Shown piece by piece: positions 5,333 to 58,186 of a stretch of DNA of 64,000 bases. The DNA is from Rhodospirillaceae bacterium (GTDB lineage Bacteria; Pseudomonadota; Alphaproteobacteria; GCA-2731375), in assembly GCA_018660265.1 (NCBI GenBank), contig JABJKS010000066.1, forward strand, positions 1 to 64,000, read 5' to 3'. Position 1 is the first letter of the stretch. Each line of letters opens with the position of its first letter. Both the position numbers and the translations under genes were made by a program. The notes beneath the pieces were generated by a model. It did not search any database and had not been told where the DNA came from. It saw only the letters and a program-made list of their open reading frames with translations.

Positions 5333-5655
5333 TGTGACGTCTCACCGGGTTATTCAAGCGCCTTGAGCGCGGGAACCACCCCGAAGCCGTCGCCGGTGCC
5401 ATGGGCGTCGGCGTTCGGACAGTCTACAAGTGGCAGCTAGGTTACCCTGTTGCATTTGAGGAGGTGGCTCGACTTGCCACCAGGGCACTCAGAGCGATAT
5501 CTGATTCTTCGTCTACGCTATCCGACCATTTTGTCAAAAACCTTCAGCCGGGGCCGGGCGCTGATATTCCGTTCTAAAGCTAGAATTTGTGGTTGGCCTG
5601 GCCGTCGATTTGCTCGGCGTTCCAGGCTCCAATATTACGGTTCAGAAATATAGAG
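5333..5655 (+). pseudogene. IS481-like transposase remnant (5' end with HTH)
   Basis: The stretch begins with TGTGACGTCTCACCGGGTTA (5333-5352), three mismatches in 24 nt from the terminal repeat of the element at 6517. It then encodes RGNHPEAVAGAMGVGVRTVY followed by KW, the helix-turn-helix of IS481-family transposases. Downstream, pieces like the second HTH (RALIFRSKARICG) appear in another frame, so at least one frameshift is present. No catalytic DDE domain is found. The remaining gap to 5818 holds no gene and probably the promoter of the next CDS. Confidence 0.6.
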
Positions 5656-5818: not shown

Positions 5819-6514
5819 ATGCTGGTGGCACGTTTTGTCATTGTTCTGTTCGTCGCCGCAGTCGCCTACATCATGTTGCTGATCGGGCCGGCGTGGTGGC
5901 TCACCGACAGTTTGGATTGGCCCCGCGGCTGGCTGGCGATCGGCGCACTATGGAGCGCGAAATTGATCTCCGGCCTATGGCTGTTACGCGTCGATCCCGC
6001 GCTGCTGGAAAAGCGGATGTCGCTGACGGCGAAAAACCCCGTCGCGGACAAACTGGCCACGGCGTTGATCGGGGTGTTGTTATGCGGCTGGTTCGTCGCC
6101 ACGGCGTTCGACGTGCATCAATTCCAGCTGTTGCCGGCGCTGCCTGGACACGTTTCGTTACTCATCGGGCTGGTGCTATTCGTTCTCGGCATGGCACTGA
6201 TTATGTGGGCCATGCTGGAGAACACCTTTGCCGTATCGGTGGTTGAAGTGCAGGCTGACCGGCAGCAAACCCTTATCGATACCGGCCCTTATGCCTATAT
6301 CCGTCACCCTATGTACAGCGGCATCATTCTGGCATTCATGGGCCTAGGGTTGGTTTGCGAATCCACTGCCCTGGCACTGGCCGGCGTGCCCATGGTGATG
6401 CTGGGTTTCCTGCCCCGTATTCTGATTGAAGAGGCCACCCTGCGTGACGGATTGGCTGGCTACCTTGAGTACCTGGCGCGTGTTCGTTGGCGTTTGATCC
6501 CTGGGATTTACTAG
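5819..6514 (+). CDS. Isoprenylcysteine carboxyl methyltransferase-like membrane protein
   Basis: This 231-aa integral membrane protein has about five to six predicted membrane segments (for example near 5-30, 40-58, 80-98, 107-133 and 165-200). GPYAYIRHPMYSG (about 156-168) is the SAM-binding signature of the ICMT/PEMT-like family (RHPxY). A ribosome-binding site AGGAGGG lies 6 nt before the ATG at 5819. Bacterial members methylate unidentified carboxyl or amine groups of lipids or small molecules; the substrate here is unknown. The gene sits between two IS481-like fragments (5333 and 6517), so it may have been carried or trapped by mobile DNA. Confidence 0.75.
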   Translation: MLVARFVIVLFVAAVAYIMLLIGPAWWLTDSLDWPRGWLAIGALWSAKLISGLWLLRVDPALLEKRMSLTAKNPVADKLATALIGVLLCGWFVATAFDVHQFQLLPALPGHVSLLIGLVLFVLGMALIMWAMLENTFAVSVVEVQADRQQTLIDTGPYAYIRHPMYSGIILAFMGLGLVCESTALALAGVPMVMLGFLPRILIEEATLRDGLAGYLEYLARVRWRLIPGIY

Positions 6515-6516
6515 GC

Positions 6517-6625
6517 TGTGACGTCTCACGAGGTTGTTCATTCGATCCACTTCTGAAAAGCTGATGTTTACCAAGACAGAAGCTTCAAGGAGAGAACCAA
6601 ATGAACAACCTCGTGAGACGTCACA
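6517..6625. mobile_element. 109-bp MITE-like element with perfect 26-bp terminal inverted repeats
   Basis: The arms 6517-6542 and 6600-6625 are perfect inverted repeats beginning TGTGACGTCTCACGAGG and ending in ACA. The interior (GATCCACTTCTGAAAAGCTG... and an in-frame start MFTKTEASR) matches the 5' end of the fragment at 11887. It looks like a deletion derivative that joins both ends of an IS481-like insertion sequence with no transposase. The TG...CA ends fit that family. Confidence 0.75.
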
Positions 6626-6647
6626 TCCAGCGCATGGGGTCGCACAT

Positions 6648-7184
6648 TTAGGCGTCAGACGTTTGGCCCAGGACGATGCGGTTCAGGGCCTCGATTGTGG
6701 TATTCGCCTGCGCCTTCAGCCCTGCATCGGTGGCGGAGGAGACTGGATGGTCGATGATCGCGAAATCATAATCAGGCATGCCGAGAACCCGGCTCATCAA
6801 TTCTGCGGCCGAGACGAAATTTGTCGTCATTACGGCGACCGCAGGCACCCCGGCACGTTCGGCGATAATTGCGTCATGCAAACTGCACGACGAACAACTG
6901 CCTCAATCCCCCAGACCGGATATCACCACATCCCATTCGGGGATTTCTGCGGCGATATAGTCATCCGCCGGCGCGCTGTAGTTGGATTTGACCCGCAGCA
7001 GGACCTCAGCCACGCCAAACTGTTCACGCAATATGGTTTCGGCATGATGGAAAAAGCCCTTGGTGCCTTCCTTGCCGTTGGAAATAAAGCCAACGGTTTT
7101 CCCTTCCAGCGAGGTCAGCCGGGGTGCCAATGCACCTAATGCGACATCTGCCTCGCTGCTGGGATCTAGTACCTGAAGCGTCAT
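6648..7184 (-). CDS. UGSC-family selenoprotein (in-frame TGA read as Sec)
   Basis: Read through the TGA at 6903-6905, this is a 178-aa protein: 93 residues, selenocysteine 94, then 84 residues. The context is SGLGD-U-GSCSSCSLHDA, the defining U-G-S-C motif of the UGSC (seleno)protein family, with further cysteines at 97 and 100. The reading frame is intact on both sides and both halves look coding (LEGKTVGFISNGKEG before, AERAGVPAVAVMTTNF after). A SECIS-like hairpin follows (6873-6891). The start at 7184 has AGGAAGG 6 nt upstream. It is 34 nt behind the 352-aa partner gene on the same strand, so the two form an operon. The molecular function of the family is not established; a redox-active selenolate/thiol centre is inferred. 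Without recoding this would appear as two short genes. Confidence 0.85.
6873..6891 (-). promoter_or_regulatory. bSECIS-like hairpin of the UGSC selenoprotein
   Basis: On the minus strand, GTCGTGCA and TGCATGAC form an 8-bp stem (one G-U pair) around a GTT loop. The hairpin starts 11 nt after the TGA, the same spacing as the E. coli fdhF element recognised by SelB, and its loop contains the expected GU. The hairpin itself is seen in the sequence; SelB binding is inferred. Confidence 0.7.
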
Positions 7185-7218: not shown

Positions 7219-8277
7219 TTAAAGTGTGGGTGGTGGGCCGCAATCAAGACAGGCGCCAATGGGCAAGGTCACGGCGTGGCTTTTATGGCCCAGCCAGGGC
7301 GGAATAACGGCACCAAAGCCGCCCGCCGGTCCACCGGCGGCAATAATCAATAATTGATCGGGACTTTCCATGGCGGGATATACCGTATCGCCGCGATCAC
7401 GGACCACGGCCCCTTTGCCCACATCGGCCCATTCCCGGCGATGGATGCGGGCGCGCTCGAAGATACGTTGCGCCACATCCTTTTTGCTCCACCCCGCAGC
7501 GTCAAGATGGTCGCGCAATTGTTTTGCTATGATGATGGCATAGTTGCCGGGCCAGATCGAATAATGCCGCATATTGGCCCGGATCTCAGCCGCGAATGTC
7601 TCCAATATCTCCTCAGGCTCGGTGGTCCATTCATTCATGATTTGCCGCGGCGCACCGGCGGCCATGACGGTGACGGCGGAAAGTTCCTTTGGAATATCCT
7701 GTTGTTCGGCCAGACTAAGCCAATTGCTGTCGTCTTCATCCTCCGCCAGGCAAAAGCTGATTTTACCAGGGTGCCCCAGGGTTGATCGATCGATTTCACC
7801 GGGACGGACTTCCAGCATATTAATCAGGATCAAACGCAGGGCCCGGCCAATAACCATGGTCGCCCGGTCGGAGGAACCAAGGACATTAAAGGTTGGATTG
7901 GTATTCAATTCCAAACGGATCGGGCCGTTCAGAACCAAAAGCACGGCGCAGCCGCCCGTGCTGGCCGTTGCCCCATGCAGCAAAAACTCCGGCTGCAACA
8001 TCGCCGTCACAGCCGCGACGACGACCGGAAAATGCATCGGCAGGCAGCCGGCCATGACAGCATTGATGGCCAGTTTCTCCGCCGTGATCGGTCGCTCGCG
8101 CACCGGCTCCAGCCCGATCAACTGATCGGGTGGCAGCATGCTCCATTCCAGGCAGGCCGCCACGGCCTCCGCTGTTGGCGGCACAATGGGCAGGCCGTCG
8201 GTCCAGCCATGACTGTGGTACAGCTCCTGGACCGCATTGAAATCACCGGCTTCGTGAATTTTTGACGAAAGTTGCAT
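7219..8277 (-). CDS. Uncharacterised partner of the UGSC selenoprotein
   Basis: This 352-aa protein has no recognised catalytic domain. Its N-terminus has HGWTDGLPIVPPT (about 23-35), a motif seen in proteins encoded beside or fused to UGSC domains (from memory, not searched). Other notable stretches are ATASTGGCAVLLVLNGP (around 104-120) and a C-terminal IGACLDCGPPPTL, a CxxC pair three residues from the family-like proline run. It is the upstream gene of the selenoprotein operon, with 34 nt between them. No signal peptide is visible, so a cytoplasmic location is likely. A role as a substrate-binding or enzyme subunit working with the selenoprotein is inference. Confidence 0.7.
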   Translation of the reverse strand: MQLSSKIHEAGDFNAVQELYHSHGWTDGLPIVPPTAEAVAACLEWSMLPPDQLIGLEPVRERPITAEKLAINAVMAGCLPMHFPVVVAAVTAMLQPEFLLHGATASTGGCAVLLVLNGPIRLELNTNPTFNVLGSSDRATMVIGRALRLILINMLEVRPGEIDRSTLGHPGKISFCLAEDEDDSNWLSLAEQQDIPKELSAVTVMAAGAPRQIMNEWTTEPEEILETFAAEIRANMRHYSIWPGNYAIIIAKQLRDHLDAAGWSKKDVAQRIFERARIHRREWADVGKGAVVRDRGDTVYPAMESPDQLLIIAAGGPAGGFGAVIPPWLGHKSHAVTLPIGACLDCGPPPTL

Positions 8278-8464: not shown

Positions 8465-9703
8465 ATGCCAATGTCCGACAACATCGCCGACTTCACTTTC
8501 CTGCAAGGGGTCAAGGTCATCGATTTCACGCAATTCGAAGCGGGGCCCTCCTGCACGGAAACCCTGGCCTGGCTTGGCGCGGATGTGGTGAAGATTGAGA
8601 ACCCCAATAGGGGCGATCCCGGGCGCAGGCTGCAACCCAACCAACCGGACACCGACCCCTATTATTTCCACATGTTCAACGCCAACAAGAAATCCATCGC
8701 GGTGAACCTGAAATCGCCCGAAGGCCTGGCCCTGGTCAAGGATATGATCGCCAAGGCGGACGTGATGATGGAAAACTTCGCCCCCGGTGCCATTGAACGC
8801 CTGGGCCTGTCCTATACGGAGGTGAAGGCAATCAATCCAGGCATCATCTATGGCCAGGTGAAAGGTTTTGGCGAAGGCGGCCCGTTTGAGAAAAACCTGG
8901 CCTTCGATATGATCGCCCAGGCTTGCGGCGGGGCCTTCAGTGTGACCGGCGATCCCGACGGCCCGCCAATTCGCCCCGGCACCACCATTGGCGATACGGG
9001 CACGGGCATGCTGATGGCCATCACCATCCTGGGCGCGCTGTATAAGCGGCGGGAGACGGGCGAAGGCCACCGGTTGGAAGTCGCCATGCAGGACGCCATG
9101 CTGCACTATATGCGGGTCAACTTCGCCACCACGGGGCGCACGGGTGAGGCCGCCGGTCGGGCCGGCAGCAAAGTACCCGGCATCAGCAATGCCCCCATGG
9201 GTCTTTATCCCTGCGCGCCGGGCGGGTTGAACGATTACGTCTATATCATGACCTCTCGCGCCAACCCGGATCATTGGGACCGACTGCTGACCTTGATCGG
9301 GCGCGAGGATCTGATTGGTGATGAGCGTTATCTGACGCCCGCCGGCCGTGTCGAACGTGACGGGGAAGTGGACGAAATCATCGCCGCCTGGACCCGTGGC
9401 CTATCGAAACTGGACGCCATGAAAATGGTCGGCGAGGCAGGCATCCCTGCTGGTGCCGTGCTGGATACAGAGGAATTAAACGCCGATGTGACCTTTGAAG
9501 AACGCGGCGTCATGCAGACCATGGTGCACCCGGTGCATCGTCCGTTCAAGATGCCGGCCTGGCCGGTGCGCGTGGACGGCAAAGCCACGCGCCTGAAGTC
9601 TTCGCCGATGTTGGGGGAACATACGGATCAAGTGATCAGCGACTGGCTGGGCCTGAATGCAGCCGCAATAGAGGCGCTGAAGACGGACGGCACGGTCGGT
9701 TAG
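8465..9703 (+). CDS. CaiB/BaiF family CoA-transferase (class III)
   Basis: This 412-aa family III CoA-transferase has VIDFTQFEAGPSCTETLAWLGADVVKIE (about 18-45), the N-terminal CoA-binding region, and a catalytic aspartate predicted at Asp148 (AFDMIAQA). The C-terminal part has the usual DTEELNADVTFEERG stretch. The ATG at 8465 was chosen because GGAGG lies directly upstream (8456-8460), while the longer in-frame extension has no ribosome-binding site. It is divergent from the UGSC operon and opens a run of acyl-CoA genes. The CoA donor and acceptor cannot be read from sequence; formyl-CoA-type, carnitine-type and mesaconyl-type enzymes all share this fold. Confidence 0.85.
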   Translation: MPMSDNIADFTFLQGVKVIDFTQFEAGPSCTETLAWLGADVVKIENPNRGDPGRRLQPNQPDTDPYYFHMFNANKKSIAVNLKSPEGLALVKDMIAKADVMMENFAPGAIERLGLSYTEVKAINPGIIYGQVKGFGEGGPFEKNLAFDMIAQACGGAFSVTGDPDGPPIRPGTTIGDTGTGMLMAITILGALYKRRETGEGHRLEVAMQDAMLHYMRVNFATTGRTGEAAGRAGSKVPGISNAPMGLYPCAPGGLNDYVYIMTSRANPDHWDRLLTLIGREDLIGDERYLTPAGRVERDGEVDEIIAAWTRGLSKLDAMKMVGEAGIPAGAVLDTEELNADVTFEERGVMQTMVHPVHRPFKMPAWPVRVDGKATRLKSSPMLGEHTDQVISDWLGLNAAAIEALKTDGTVG

Positions 9704-9915: not shown

Positions 9916-10383
9916 ATGGCAGACGAAAAAACAATGACTTTCCCCGTCGAGGCAACGCACATCATGATGTTTCGACGGTCCATCGGCGATTTTTCCGTTC
10001 CCGATACAGGCATGGAAGATACCGCCGCACCACCCACCTTCCCGCAAGCCGTGGCGCAGTTCGACCCGGACTATTTCCTGCGGATTAAGCCGGGCGAGGC
10101 GTGGTTCGGTTCAGGCAAAAATCCATCCGGCGTTGAAGGTAAACCCGCTTCATCAGGCGGCCTGCACGCCGAACAGCATTTTGAATTCGAACGTCCCGTG
10201 GTCCCCGGCGATGTCCTTTCAGCCGTCACCAAGGCGGGCAAGACCTGGGAAAAGGAAAGCAAGCGCGCGGGCAAGTTGATGTTTTCCGAACGCATCACGG
10301 AGTACCGGGATCAAAATGGCGAACTGGTCTGCACCGCCCGCGGTGTCGGTGTGAAAACCGAACGTCCCGTGGATCAGGGCTGA
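9916..10383 (+). CDS. FAS1-like / MaoC N-terminal-type dehydratase domain protein
   Basis: The 155-aa protein resembles the N-terminal, non-catalytic half of MaoC-like hydratases (FAS1-like dehydratase, MaoC_dehydrat_N). LHAEQHFEFERPVVPGDVLSA (about 76-96) is the diagnostic hot-dog-fold stretch. In this family the protein pairs with a separate catalytic MaoC subunit, and exactly such a gene follows 22 nt downstream (10406). Together they probably form a heteromeric (R)-enoyl-CoA hydratase. The start at 9916 is preceded by a weak site (AGAAGACA). Confidence 0.75.
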   Translation: MADEKTMTFPVEATHIMMFRRSIGDFSVPDTGMEDTAAPPTFPQAVAQFDPDYFLRIKPGEAWFGSGKNPSGVEGKPASSGGLHAEQHFEFERPVVPGDVLSAVTKAGKTWEKESKRAGKLMFSERITEYRDQNGELVCTARGVGVKTERPVDQG

Positions 10384-10405
10384 GCCAGAATTTAGGAGCA
10401 AGATC

Positions 10406-10828
10406 ATGACATTGAAAGCAAGTGAAATTTCCGTCGGCGATACCTTTGAAGAGGTTCTGGTGGAAGATCTGAAACGCACCCAACTGGTGATGTATTCCGG
10501 CACCTCCGGTGATTATAACCCCCTGCACACGGACGATGTTTATTGCCGTGAAGCAGCCGGCTACCCAGGGGTCTTTGCCCACGGCATGTTGACCATGGGC
10601 ATGACCGGGCGCGTCGTCACCAATGCCTTTGGGGCTGCGAACGTCAAAAAATACGGCGTCCGCTTCACCAACCAGGTCTGGCCCGGCGACGATCTGACCG
10701 GCAAGGCGGTGATTGAGGCGATCCGTGAAGAAGGCGGCGAGACCCTGGTCGATCTGGCCATCACCACCACTAATCAAAAAGGCGACGTGGTCGTCATGGG
10801 CAACGCAACGGGCCGGGTTGATCCCTAG
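10406..10828 (+). CDS. MaoC-family enoyl-CoA hydratase subunit
   Basis: This 140-aa hot-dog protein carries the hydratase-2 motif YSGTSGDYNPLHTDD (about 31-45), with the catalytic Asp and His expected in GDYNPLH. FAHGMLTMGMTGRVV follows as in (R)-specific enoyl-CoA hydratases. A good ribosome-binding site (AGGAGC) precedes the ATG. It pairs with the preceding FAS1-like subunit and ends before a strong intrinsic terminator (10853-10891), so the two genes are one transcription unit, possibly with the CoA-transferase at 8465. The acyl substrate is not known. Confidence 0.85.
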   Translation: MTLKASEISVGDTFEEVLVEDLKRTQLVMYSGTSGDYNPLHTDDVYCREAAGYPGVFAHGMLTMGMTGRVVTNAFGAANVKKYGVRFTNQVWPGDDLTGKAVIEAIREEGGETLVDLAITTTNQKGDVVVMGNATGRVDP

Positions 10829-10852
10829 CCCTACAGCTTGAGAACAATCATA

Positions 10853-10891
10853 GGGGGCGGCGGATTGTAAGAACGCCGCCCCCTTATTTTT
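10853..10891 (+). terminator. Strong intrinsic terminator
   Basis: GGGGGCGGCG (10853-10862) pairs perfectly with CGCCGCCCCC (10874-10883) over 10 bp, followed by TTATTTTT. It closes the hydratase transcription unit. Confidence 0.88.
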
Positions 10892-10913
10892 ATGAATAAT
10901 GGGTATTTAAGAT

Positions 10914-11363
10914 ATGTCTACAGCACCACGGCAATCGGGCCATCGTTATATTGAAACCATCAATCGCTATTACGATGGTTGCAATACGGCTGACTATGAT
11001 TTGATGATGTCCACCTTCGACGAGGACGTTGTGCATTATTTCGTCGATCATGGTGCCGTCAAAGGTGCCGCCGCCCTGGCCAATTATTGGGTCAAGATCG
11101 GCCCACGCACAGCGGCCCATTGGCGCCTGGATCATGCCATGGTGGAAGAGCCCGAATGCGTCATCGAATGGAGCATGCGCTGGACCCCAAAGCCCACTGG
11201 CGTGGCGGAAGTGCTACGGGGCAGCGAGTGGTATATCTTCCGGGATGACAAAATCCTGGAAATCCGCAGCTATCACAACAACCGCTTTCTGCAAGACCCG
11301 AAAAACCGCGAGCTTTGGGATTTCCCCTATGAAGCGCGCGGCTATACCAAGCAGTCCGTTTAG
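10914..11363 (+). CDS. NTF2-like / SnoaL-type protein
   Basis: The 149-aa protein has the cone-like NTF2 fold pattern: an N-terminal helix region (YIETINRYYDGCNTADYDLM, about 12-31) followed by beta-rich segments including FDEDVVHYFVDHGAVKG and SEWYIFRDDKILEIRSYH. SnoaL-like proteins are small cyclases, isomerases or ligand-binding proteins; residues alone do not show which. It follows the terminator at 10853-10891, so it is probably transcribed separately, together with the ureidoglycolate-lyase-like gene 29 nt downstream. Confidence 0.7.
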   Translation: MSTAPRQSGHRYIETINRYYDGCNTADYDLMMSTFDEDVVHYFVDHGAVKGAAALANYWVKIGPRTAAHWRLDHAMVEEPECVIEWSMRWTPKPTGVAEVLRGSEWYIFRDDKILEIRSYHNNRFLQDPKNRELWDFPYEARGYTKQSV

Positions 11364-11392
11364 TATTCGTCTACAATGATTGGAAGAGCTTC

Positions 11393-11887
11393 ATGCGCGA
11401 ACTTATAGCCGAACCCATTGAGCAAGCCGCGTTTGAACCCTATGGGCAGACGCTGTCGACGCCGGTCAGCGGCAATCGGACCGATTATGCGGCCCAATTA
11501 TCGAACGGTCGCCCCGGCGTTGATATCAACCTTGCCGTGGTCCGGGCCAATCCGCCAAAGACCCTGCCCATAGATGTCGTGAAGATGGAGCGGCATCCGC
11601 TATCGTCCCAGGCCTTCATGCCCCTGGACTGCGACCGCTATCTGGTGATCGTCGCAAACCCCCAAAACATGGATGGGGAAGCGGACGGCCCGCCTGACCT
11701 ATCAACCCTGCGCGCTTTTACGGTGCCGGGGGACGTGGGCATAAACTACAACGCGGGCACCTGGCATTTTCCCCTCACCAGCTTGGACCGCGCAGCGACA
11801 TTTGCCTTGTTGATGTACATGGACGGCGGCCCCGGGGACGAGGATTGGGCCACCCTGCCCGAACCAATTCAGCTGGCTGTTGATTAG
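11393..11887 (+). CDS. Ureidoglycolate lyase family protein
   Basis: This 164-aa protein matches the AllA family (ureidoglycolate lyase, about 160-170 aa). It has an N-terminal AAFEPYGQTL, RHPLSSQAFMPLD (about 63-75) and a C-terminal NYNAGTWHFPL, a cupin-like metal-site region. AllA splits ureidoglycolate into glyoxylate and urea in purine/allantoin use. No other allantoin gene is nearby, so its role here may be on a related ureido or hydroxy-acid substrate. The stop is immediately followed by an IS481-like end fragment. Confidence 0.75.
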   Translation: MRELIAEPIEQAAFEPYGQTLSTPVSGNRTDYAAQLSNGRPGVDINLAVVRANPPKTLPIDVVKMERHPLSSQAFMPLDCDRYLVIVANPQNMDGEADGPPDLSTLRAFTVPGDVGINYNAGTWHFPLTSLDRAATFALLMYMDGGPGDEDWATLPEPIQLAVD

Positions 11888-11965
11888 ACGTGAGTTCTCA
11901 CGAGGTTGTTCAGTCGATCCACTTCTGAAAAAGCTGATGTTTGCGAAGACAGAAGCGTCGAGGAA
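11887..11965 (+). mobile_element. IS481-like 5' end fragment
   Basis: About 79 bp match the left half of the MITE at 6517: TCTCACGAGGTTGTTCA, GATCCACTTCTGAAAA and GCTGATGTTTGCGAAGACA occur in the same order. It encodes the transposase-like start MFAKTEASRKGRETLIALHG before stopping. No matching right end was found nearby, so it is a solo, decayed end. Confidence 0.6.
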
Positions 11966-12010
11966 AGGTCGAGAGACGTTGATTGCGCTACATGGAAGCA
12001 GGCTTCATAG

Positions 12011-13171
12011 TTAGAACACACCACTTTCTTTCATCGCGGCGATGTCGCTATCACTATAGCCGATGTTACGCAGATTGCTTTCCGTGTGCTGGCCCAGTTC
12101 GGGTAAATCGAACACCACCTGGCCGGGTTCGTTCTTGAACTTCATTGGGATGCCGATATGTTCCCAGCCGCGGTCATCCTCGATGATCATTTCCCGGTGG
12201 CGCAGTTGCGGGTCGTCGGCCCCTTGGCGCAGGTCGTTGACGGGGGCGAAGGCGGCGTCCACATCTTCGAACCAGTCCACCCAATAGGCCTGGGTCTCGG
12301 AGAGGAATTTTTCGGTCAGGAATTCCTTGGCCGGCAGTTGGTTGGGCCCAGGCGGGGGCAGGCAGACATCGATCAGATCCGGGCGGCCCATCTTATTCAG
12401 GATGGCGGCGGCGAAATGCATTTCCGCCCCGCCCAGGACGATGTGTTTGCCGTCTTTGGTGCCATAGATGTTGTACATGGCATTACCGCCCCAGGATCGT
12501 TCGTCCTTGGGGTTGGGGGCGCGTTTTTCGGCGAACACCGGGCCGACGTTATTGGGCATGGCGGCGATCAGACTGTCCATCATGGACAGGTCGATGTAAT
12601 CGCCCGCACCGGTGTCCCGGCGGCGGTACAACGCCATCAACACCGCCGACAGACCCATCATGGACGACAGCATATCCGCATTGGCAATACCCGGTATGGC
12701 CGGTTGCCCATCGGGGCCTAGGTTGACGGACAAGATGCCTGCATAGGCCTCCGTCGCCATATCGTGGGCCGGTTTCTTGGCATAGGGGCCGTCCTGGCCA
12801 AAGGCGGAGAGGGAGGCATAAACGATGCCGGGGTGGCGCGCGGATACCGCCTCATAGCCGACGCCCAGGCGATCGACCACGCCGGGGCGAAAAGCCTCGA
12901 TCATCACATCGCAGCTTTCCGCCAGGCGCAGGGCGGCTTCCACGCCTTCCTCTGTCTTCAGGTTCAGCTGTACGCTTTGTTTGTTGCGATGGGTATTGGC
13001 GAAAAACACCGTGGTGCCATCACGCTCCGCCCCGATCACCCGGTTCGGTTCACCGCCATTGATGGGTTCCAGCTTGATCACCTCGGCCCCATGGTCGGCC
13101 ATCATTTGTGTCAGCAAGGGGCCCGGTAGGAACAATGACAGATCAAGTACGCGGATACCTTCGAGTTTCAT
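12011..13171 (-). CDS. CaiB/BaiF family CoA-transferase
   Basis: This 386-aa family III CoA-transferase has LDLSLFLPGPLLTQMMADHGAEVIKLE (about 9-35) at the N-terminus. The catalytic aspartate is predicted at Asp137 (AHDMATEAYAG). TGAGDYIDLSMMDSL is the typical mid-domain stretch. It lies 27 nt downstream of a second CoA-transferase and belongs to a minus-strand operon with an acyl-CoA dehydrogenase and a MaoC hydratase. Only moderate similarity to its neighbour is visible, so the two may form a heteromer or act on successive intermediates. Confidence 0.85.
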   Translation of the reverse strand: MKLEGIRVLDLSLFLPGPLLTQMMADHGAEVIKLEPINGGEPNRVIGAERDGTTVFFANTHRNKQSVQLNLKTEEGVEAALRLAESCDVMIEAFRPGVVDRLGVGYEAVSARHPGIVYASLSAFGQDGPYAKKPAHDMATEAYAGILSVNLGPDGQPAIPGIANADMLSSMMGLSAVLMALYRRRDTGAGDYIDLSMMDSLIAAMPNNVGPVFAEKRAPNPKDERSWGGNAMYNIYGTKDGKHIVLGGAEMHFAAAILNKMGRPDLIDVCLPPPGPNQLPAKEFLTEKFLSETQAYWVDWFEDVDAAFAPVNDLRQGADDPQLRHREMIIEDDRGWEHIGIPMKFKNEPGQVVFDLPELGQHTESNLRNIGYSDSDIAAMKESGVF

Positions 13172-57124: not shown

Positions 57125-58186
57125 ATGAGCATAAACGAAATTGAACAAGAGCCGCCGCGCCTTACATCCCTGGCACACGGCGGCGGTTGAGGCTGCAAGA
57201 TTGCTCCTGCCGTGCTGCATGAGCTGCTTGCGAATTTACCGAAGCCCGATCCGGACGCCAACCTGTTGGTCGGCCATGAAACCGGTGACGATGCAGCCGT
57301 CTATCAAATTGATGATACCCGCGCCATGGTGGCGACGACGGATTTCTTTATGCCCGTGGTCGACGATCCCTACGAATTCGGTCGTATCTCGGCCACCAAT
57401 GCCCTCTCGGACGTCTACGCTGTTGGCGGTCGCCCGGTGCTGGCCTTGGCCATCGTCGGCATGCCCATCGACAAAATCTCCACCGATACATTCCGACAGG
57501 TACTGGCAGGCGGTGCCGCTGTCTGCAAGGAAGCCGGTGTGCCTATCGCGGGTGGCCATTCCATTGATACGTTGGAGCCAATTTATGGCCTGGCCGCCAT
57601 CGGCATGGTGGATATCAGCAATATCAAACGCAATATCGGTGCCAGGCCGGGTGATGCCCTGATCCTGGGAAAGGGTTTGGGCACCGGTTTTCTGGCCTCC
57701 GCCATGAAAAGCGGTACCATCACGGACGCCGCCTACAAGGAAATGATCGAGACCACGACGCTTTTGAATGATATCGGCGCGGACCTTGGGGCCCGGGAAG
57801 ACGTCCATGCCATGACCGATATCACTGGTTTTGGTCTATTGGGGCATTTGAGCGAAGTTTGCCAAGGCACCGGCCTGGGCGCTAATCTGGACCTAAGCGC
57901 CATTCCATTATTGGCCTCGGGTCGGGAATTGGCGGAAGCAGGCGTCAATACGGGTGCCACGGGCCGCAACCGGGTGGCATTTGCAGAAAACGTCCGTTTG
58001 CCCAGCGGTCTGCCGGATTGGCACAATAATATGCTCTATGATCCGCAAACTGCCGGGCCGTTGCTGGTTGCCTGTGATCCGGGCGCGGCGAACGAAATAC
58101 TGGCGCTGTTTCACGCCCGTGGTTATGACGCAGCCGCGATAATCGGCCATTGCACGGCAGGCGATCCGGTCATTACGGTATCGTAA
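57125..58186 (+). CDS. selD: Selenide, water dikinase with predicted selenocysteine 22
   Basis: Read through the TGA at 57188-57190, SelD is 353 aa: LTSLAHGGG-U-GCKIAPAVLHELL. The Sec is at the catalytic position held by Cys or Sec in other SelD proteins, followed by the invariant GCK. ETGDDAAVYQ (about 52-61), TTDFFMPVVDDPYEFGRISATNALSDVYAVGG (about 70-101) and GGHSIDTLEP are conserved ATP/Mg sites. SelD makes selenophosphate, the donor for Sec-tRNA. A SECIS-like hairpin lies at 57203-57224. A start at 57125 fits the usual N-terminus; starting downstream of the TGA would remove the catalytic centre. It overlaps the convergent methyltransferase gene by 14 bp. Confidence 0.92.
57203..57224 (+). 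promoter_or_regulatory. bSECIS-like hairpin in selD
   Basis: GCTC (57203-57206) pairs with GAGC (57221-57224) and TGC (57208-57210) with GCA (57217-57219), with one C-T mismatch between. The apical loop CGTGCT contains GT. It begins 12 nt after the TGA codon, in the range for SelB-dependent recoding. Confidence 0.6.

Follow-up and report, generated by a model that had tools for sequence, protein, structure and literature searches.

The window (the whole stretch of 64,000 nucleotides that was analysed) carries on its minus strand a UGSC-family gene whose in-frame TGA very probably encodes selenocysteine (Sec), and this gene lies downstream of a second gene whose relatives accompany UGSC genes almost everywhere. 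The conserved recoding signal, the gene pairing, a distant relation to the Sec domain of GrdB/PrdB and a repeated thioredoxin linkage are all supported by the results below, and the explanation that we consider probable is that the UGSC protein and the 352-residue upstream product together act as a two-subunit, thioredoxin-driven selenium-dependent reductase.

The gene is a further member of a known family, described since at least 2008 (PMC2398784) and still uncharacterised in the passages of PMC13188914 compared here, and the finding of the selenoprotein itself is not new. The preliminary description of this DNA had missed the pairing with the gene at 7219-8277, the five further UGSC genes of the genome and the GrdB/PrdB link. 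Neither the near-universal partner nor the GrdB/PrdB relation is stated in the passages of the literature compared, save for a fusion reported in 2008 (see below).

Table 1. Positions of the features discussed, in window coordinates
Feature	Positions	Strand	Remarks
UGSC-family selenoprotein gene	6648..7184	-	178 residues with read-through
In-frame TGA, codon 94, inferred selenocysteine	6903..6905	-	Single TGA conserved in 98/98 above-cut-off loci; Cys at this column in homologues from other phyla
SECIS-like apical hairpin, inside the coding sequence	about 6872..6892	-	8-9 bp stem, G in small loop
Partner gene	7219..8277	-	352 residues; 34 nt upstream of the UGSC gene, same strand
CoA-transferase family III gene (context)	8465..9703	+	Divergent from the pair; PF02515 E 1.2e-108
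selD (selenophosphate synthase)	57125..58186	+	TIGR00476, 391.5 bits with 1 TGA

The in-frame TGA and its recoding signal

The preliminary description had proposed a UGSC-family protein read through a TGA in an otherwise uninterrupted frame, with U-G-S-C as the context, and all of this was borne out. The frame runs from an ATG at 7184 to a TAA at 6648 with the TGA (6905-6903) as its sole interruption, the context of codon 94 is GLGD-U-GSC (U-G-S-C at residues 94-97), and a ribosome-binding-like site, AGGAAGGGA, is found directly upstream of the ATG. The Pfam UGSC model (PF24696) matched the read-through protein at 161.9 bits (cut-off 25; E 2.1e-47), and because this match, with the TGA near its middle, covers residues 4-171, both halves belong to one protein. 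The NCBI equivalog model for UGSC (NF041046), scored with Cys written in place of Sec, matched near its full length at 119.5 bits (E 1.2e-34) against a curated cut-off of 125, which marks the window protein as somewhat divergent within this family. It shares with the family the full-length profile match and the U-G-S-C motif with Sec encoded by an in-frame TGA (forms with Cys are known too), and neither model includes the partner subunit.

Six UGSC loci were found in the genome, each with exactly one in-frame TGA. A search of 61 genomes found UGSC in 18 of them, giving 98 above-cut-off loci with this genome included, and every one of these has exactly one TGA and no other stop, which excludes chance. 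All 15 genomes of the same family were positive, and in a sample of the phylum, for which few candidates were scored per genome, 6 of 397 genomes (this one included) held a locus above the cut-off. An in-frame TGA alone looks like a nonsense mutation in a dead gene, or a sequencing error, but we regard that reading as already refuted by the conservation of the single TGA across the 18 genomes with several paralogues in each, to which are added a hairpin conserved with compensatory change and the full Sec machinery of the genome.

Homologues with Cys or Sec at position 94 had been named in the preliminary description as a check, and homologues do line up on both sides of the TGA, with Cys in its column. 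A scan run on Cys patterns, which could detect Cys forms only, yielded 35 other loci from haloarchaea, Actinobacteria, several proteobacterial groups, Binatia and Myxococcales, and across 40 aligned UGSC domains Sec/Cys94 and Glu109 are invariant. We found no supporting evidence for a variant code that assigns TGA to tryptophan or some other amino acid, and this reading too is already refuted, as the homologues have Cys and not Trp at the TGA column, the genome has a tRNA-Sec with anticodon TCA, and one of the six UGSC genes, whose Sec TGA is at codon 108, also terminates at a TGA. One of the UGSC paralogues (L039:10930-11445, minus strand) has U-G-A-C instead of U-G-S-C.

The hairpin that had been reported to follow the TGA after 11 nt was confirmed, with an 8-bp stem that pairs positions +15 to +22 with +26 to +33 (about 6873-6891), and it conforms to the pattern of bacterial selenoproteins, a hairpin just past the UGA with a G in a small apical loop. 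As a control, codon-usage-weighted synonymous re-draws encoding the same peptide were folded: the -18.7 kcal/mol of the 46-nt hairpin segment was equalled by 1.7% of them, while the stem pairing alone was attained by 16%. Pairing by itself, in one gene, is thus weak evidence, and it is the energy, the covariation and the conservation of the TGA which carry the case. At least five of six core pairs were formed in 27 of 28 distinct Sec loci of the genus, and in 19 distinct loci 93% of cells were paired with a covariation score above all 500 shuffles, the clearest compensatory exchange being C-G to G-C at the top of the stem. In many Cys homologues part of the pairing persists, since these residues are under conservation.

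The selD gene noted earlier does contain its own in-frame TGA (57188-57190, context GGGUGCK), and a second SelD match in the genome lies within a longer 787-residue frame. The search for selA, selB and selC suggested at that stage was successful, with selA and selB adjacent on contig C1 and a tRNA-Sec present, so that, together with selD, the genome holds the set of genes expected for bacterial selenoproteins. From the conservation and this machinery we infer that SelB and tRNA-Sec would decode the UGA at codon 94 as selenocysteine, under the direction of the hairpin which follows it.

Sec-type UGSC genes with TGA and hairpin were also found on two plasmids typed as conjugative, p2-T1 of Acidovorax sp. 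T1 (L146:3353-5914) and pBEN of Paracoccus versutus (L153:3201-3992). The warning that standard annotation would split such genes holds in practice: in the PLSDB gene table, which is incomplete and from which the original record may differ, the Acidovorax gene is listed as a ‘hypothetical protein’ of 96 residues that stops at the TGA, with no gene for the rest, and the Paracoccus gene falls in a stretch without listed genes. Annotators should be aware that UGSC genes are being cut at the TGA.

The partner gene

The product of the partner gene matched nothing in Pfam, even with E values as high as 10 allowed, and nothing in NCBIfam. The family has eight members in the genome, with at least one adjacent or fused at each of the six UGSC loci, and a partner was likewise adjacent or fused at all 35 Cys loci, making 41 of 41 UGSC loci overall. 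When the search was made from the partner side in plasmids, UGSC was found in 9 of the 10 regions inspected, two of these being the Sec-type loci with TGA of the Acidovorax and Paracoccus plasmids. The one exception to the pairing was a partner on a Haladaptatus halobius plasmid (L148), which has no UGSC within 4 kb and sits in a CoA-transferase/CoA-ester-lyase operon.

A near-invariant Cys in the motif NAVMAGC (Cys78 in the window partner) is present in 39 of 40 aligned partners. The U-G-A-C paralogue mentioned above adjoins two partner genes (L039:9747-10832 and L039:8494-9471), one of which lacks this Cys (NAVMAGA). At several positions that the family otherwise conserves, the window partner differs, and these departures may reflect a different substrate.

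Natural fusions of UGSC with the partner occur in this genome and in others. In the Global Ocean Sampling selenoproteome, UGSC was found fused to a domain named ‘Unknown_1’ (PMC2398784, in the passages compared), and our partner family is probably that domain, the fused copies in this genome being a likeness between the two data sets. Those passages describe the fusion and a thioredoxin-like fold, whereas in our data almost every locus has the pair and the fold looks like that of flavodoxins.

Predicted fold and relation to GrdB/PrdB

An AlphaFold2 model of the window UGSC protein (pLDDT 94.6) shows a five-fold beta-alpha repeat in which every strand is followed by a helix and Sec begins the helix that comes after strand three; the subunit would be a flavodoxin-like alpha/beta domain. 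The model of a fused UGSC-partner pair had a pLDDT of 90.6 and a pTM of 0.90, the latter indicating that the two domains probably sit against each other in a fixed arrangement.

GrdB and PrdB (PF07355) are selenoprotein B of the glycine, sarcosine, betaine and D-proline reductases. The UGSC profile was compared by hhalign with 18 GrdB/PrdB-like selenoproteins of the lineage, giving a probability of 93.3% (E 2.6e-7) with the Sec columns aligned, and the probability was still 91.7% when the UxxC motif was masked in the template. Controls gave at most 2.6% (26 unrelated profiles), at most 0.6% (60 column shuffles) and 0.2% (reversed profile), and the partner profile scored 0.4% against the GrdB-like proteins and is unrelated to them. 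This profile comparison supports a distant kinship of the UGSC domain with the Sec domain of GrdB/PrdB, and not a thioredoxin fold, and the two domains probably share an ancestor. Further likenesses are the U-x-x-C motif, neighbouring genes of the thioredoxin system and the length of the part after Sec, which is some 85-90 residues in both (Sec at residue 152 of 242 in PrdB and 350 of 436 in GrdB, PMC3091704; 94 of 178 in UGSC). The systems differ in that the single read-through UGSC sequence gave no match to PF07355 (GrdB/PrdB) at E up to 10 and that the partner, with no Pfam match at the same limit, is not recognisable as a pyruvoyl subunit of the GrdE/PrdA type; the neighbourhoods inspected showed no GrdA.

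These results bear on the suggestion made in 2008, in the passages of PMC2398784 compared, that UGSC is a selenoprotein with a thioredoxin-like fold and a general role in thiol redox chemistry or as a peroxidase. The UxxC motif and the thioredoxin reductase genes adjoining some loci would suit this, and a peroxidase side activity is possible, as one has been reported for GrdB (going by the title of reference B55 in PMC3091704). We consider it distinctly improbable as the main function, since in a thioredoxin topology the redox motif follows the first core strand, while in the five-stranded beta-alpha repeat predicted here Sec comes after the third, the profile relation is to GrdB/PrdB, and a general redox duty is ill suited to a near-obligate partner of 350 residues and to catabolic neighbours.

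Comparisons with solved structures contribute only the topology of UGSC. Foldseek and VIA-align matches of the UGSC model were to generic Rossmann-like folds (best Z 10.4) and viral structure matches were likewise generic, while matches of the fused model were dominated by the UGSC domain and no new partner fold was inferred from them. No believable match came from searching with either protein as a single sequence or from profile searches of the PDB, and the PDB searches found no solved GrdB/PrdB chain for comparison.

The same genome also has six PF07355 matches, among them four read-through GrdB/PrdB-like selenoproteins with U-P-V-C and an in-frame TGA (L077, L078, L081 and L082), and U-P-N-C, U-P-F-C and U-P-D-C forms occur as well in related genomes; the lineage looks selenoprotein-rich.

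Thioredoxin linkage and proposed mechanism

In 9 of 51 loci overall (5 of the 41 reached from UGSC and 4 of the 10 reached from the partner), a thioredoxin reductase homologue was encoded near the pair; most loci have none nearby. The gene order is trxB-trxA-partner-UGSC in Arthrobacter sp. ERGS1:01 and partner-UGSC-trxB in Roseovarius sp. THAF8. Only two proteins of the present genome scored above 200 bits as thioredoxin reductase, and one of them is encoded beside a UGSC pair on C105, where a fused UGSC-partner gene (L040:8271-10013), a second partner gene (10112-11197) and the thioredoxin-reductase-like gene (11198-12121) follow each other directly. Two partner paralogues have an N-terminal thioredoxin-like domain with CxxC; the evidence for this domain (TIGR01068 at E 2e-4 for one of them, Pfam below the cut-off) is weak but consistent. 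When glycine is reduced, the electrons of NADPH reach GrdA and GrdB by way of thioredoxin reductase and then thioredoxin (PMC3091704).

A CoA-transferase family III gene, as found beside the window pair, was near 8 of 41 UGSC loci, a count taken as context only, and other neighbours were CoA-ester lyases, acyl-CoA dehydrogenases and TRAP and tripartite transporters; no background was computed for either observation. Such neighbours suggest the breakdown of small acids or CoA esters, and the six UGSC loci of the genome probably each act on a different substrate within these pathways.

In the mechanism that we propose, the two subunits would form a complex with the substrate bound between them and Sec94, by analogy, would attack it as a nucleophile. 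A selenenyl-sulfide would then form with Cys97 or with Cys78 of the partner, and Sec would be restored by thioredoxin and thioredoxin reductase, as the gene neighbours and the thioredoxin-like domains on the two partner paralogues suggest. Sec94 might alternatively be a non-redox nucleophile of a racemase-, lyase- or decarboxylase-type enzyme, with the thioredoxin genes serving only to keep it reduced. Such a role would account for an invariant Sec/Cys94 alongside a Cys97 that can be lost (CDTG in one divergent UGSC domain), and a neighbourhood of CoA-transferases and CoA-ester lyases would suit a carbon-skeleton step, but we think it rather unlikely, as the GrdB/PrdB relation and the repeated linkage to thioredoxin and its reductase fit reductive chemistry better.

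There is in our judgement about an even chance that UGSC and its partner make up a class of substrate-specific selenoreductases, driven by thioredoxin, that has so far gone unrecognised. This class would be a sister of the glycine and proline reductases and would extend outside amino-acid-fermenting bacteria, into haloarchaea and onto conjugative plasmids, with one bacterial genus having six to eight copies in each genome. Given the near-obligate partner, the GrdB/PrdB-type Sec domain and the trxB-trxA-partner-UGSC gene order, what was ‘function unknown’ can now be approached by a concrete two-protein assay.

Just past the UGSC stop there is a 41-nt inverted repeat (6514-6554 and 6588-6628, 85% complementary, 33 nt apart), and copies of its core, AACAACCTCGTGAGACGTCA, that differ by 2-3 mismatches are present at 5335-5354 and 11891-11910. 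All copies are apparently intergenic, and the repeat is apparently a dispersed palindromic element or a terminator.
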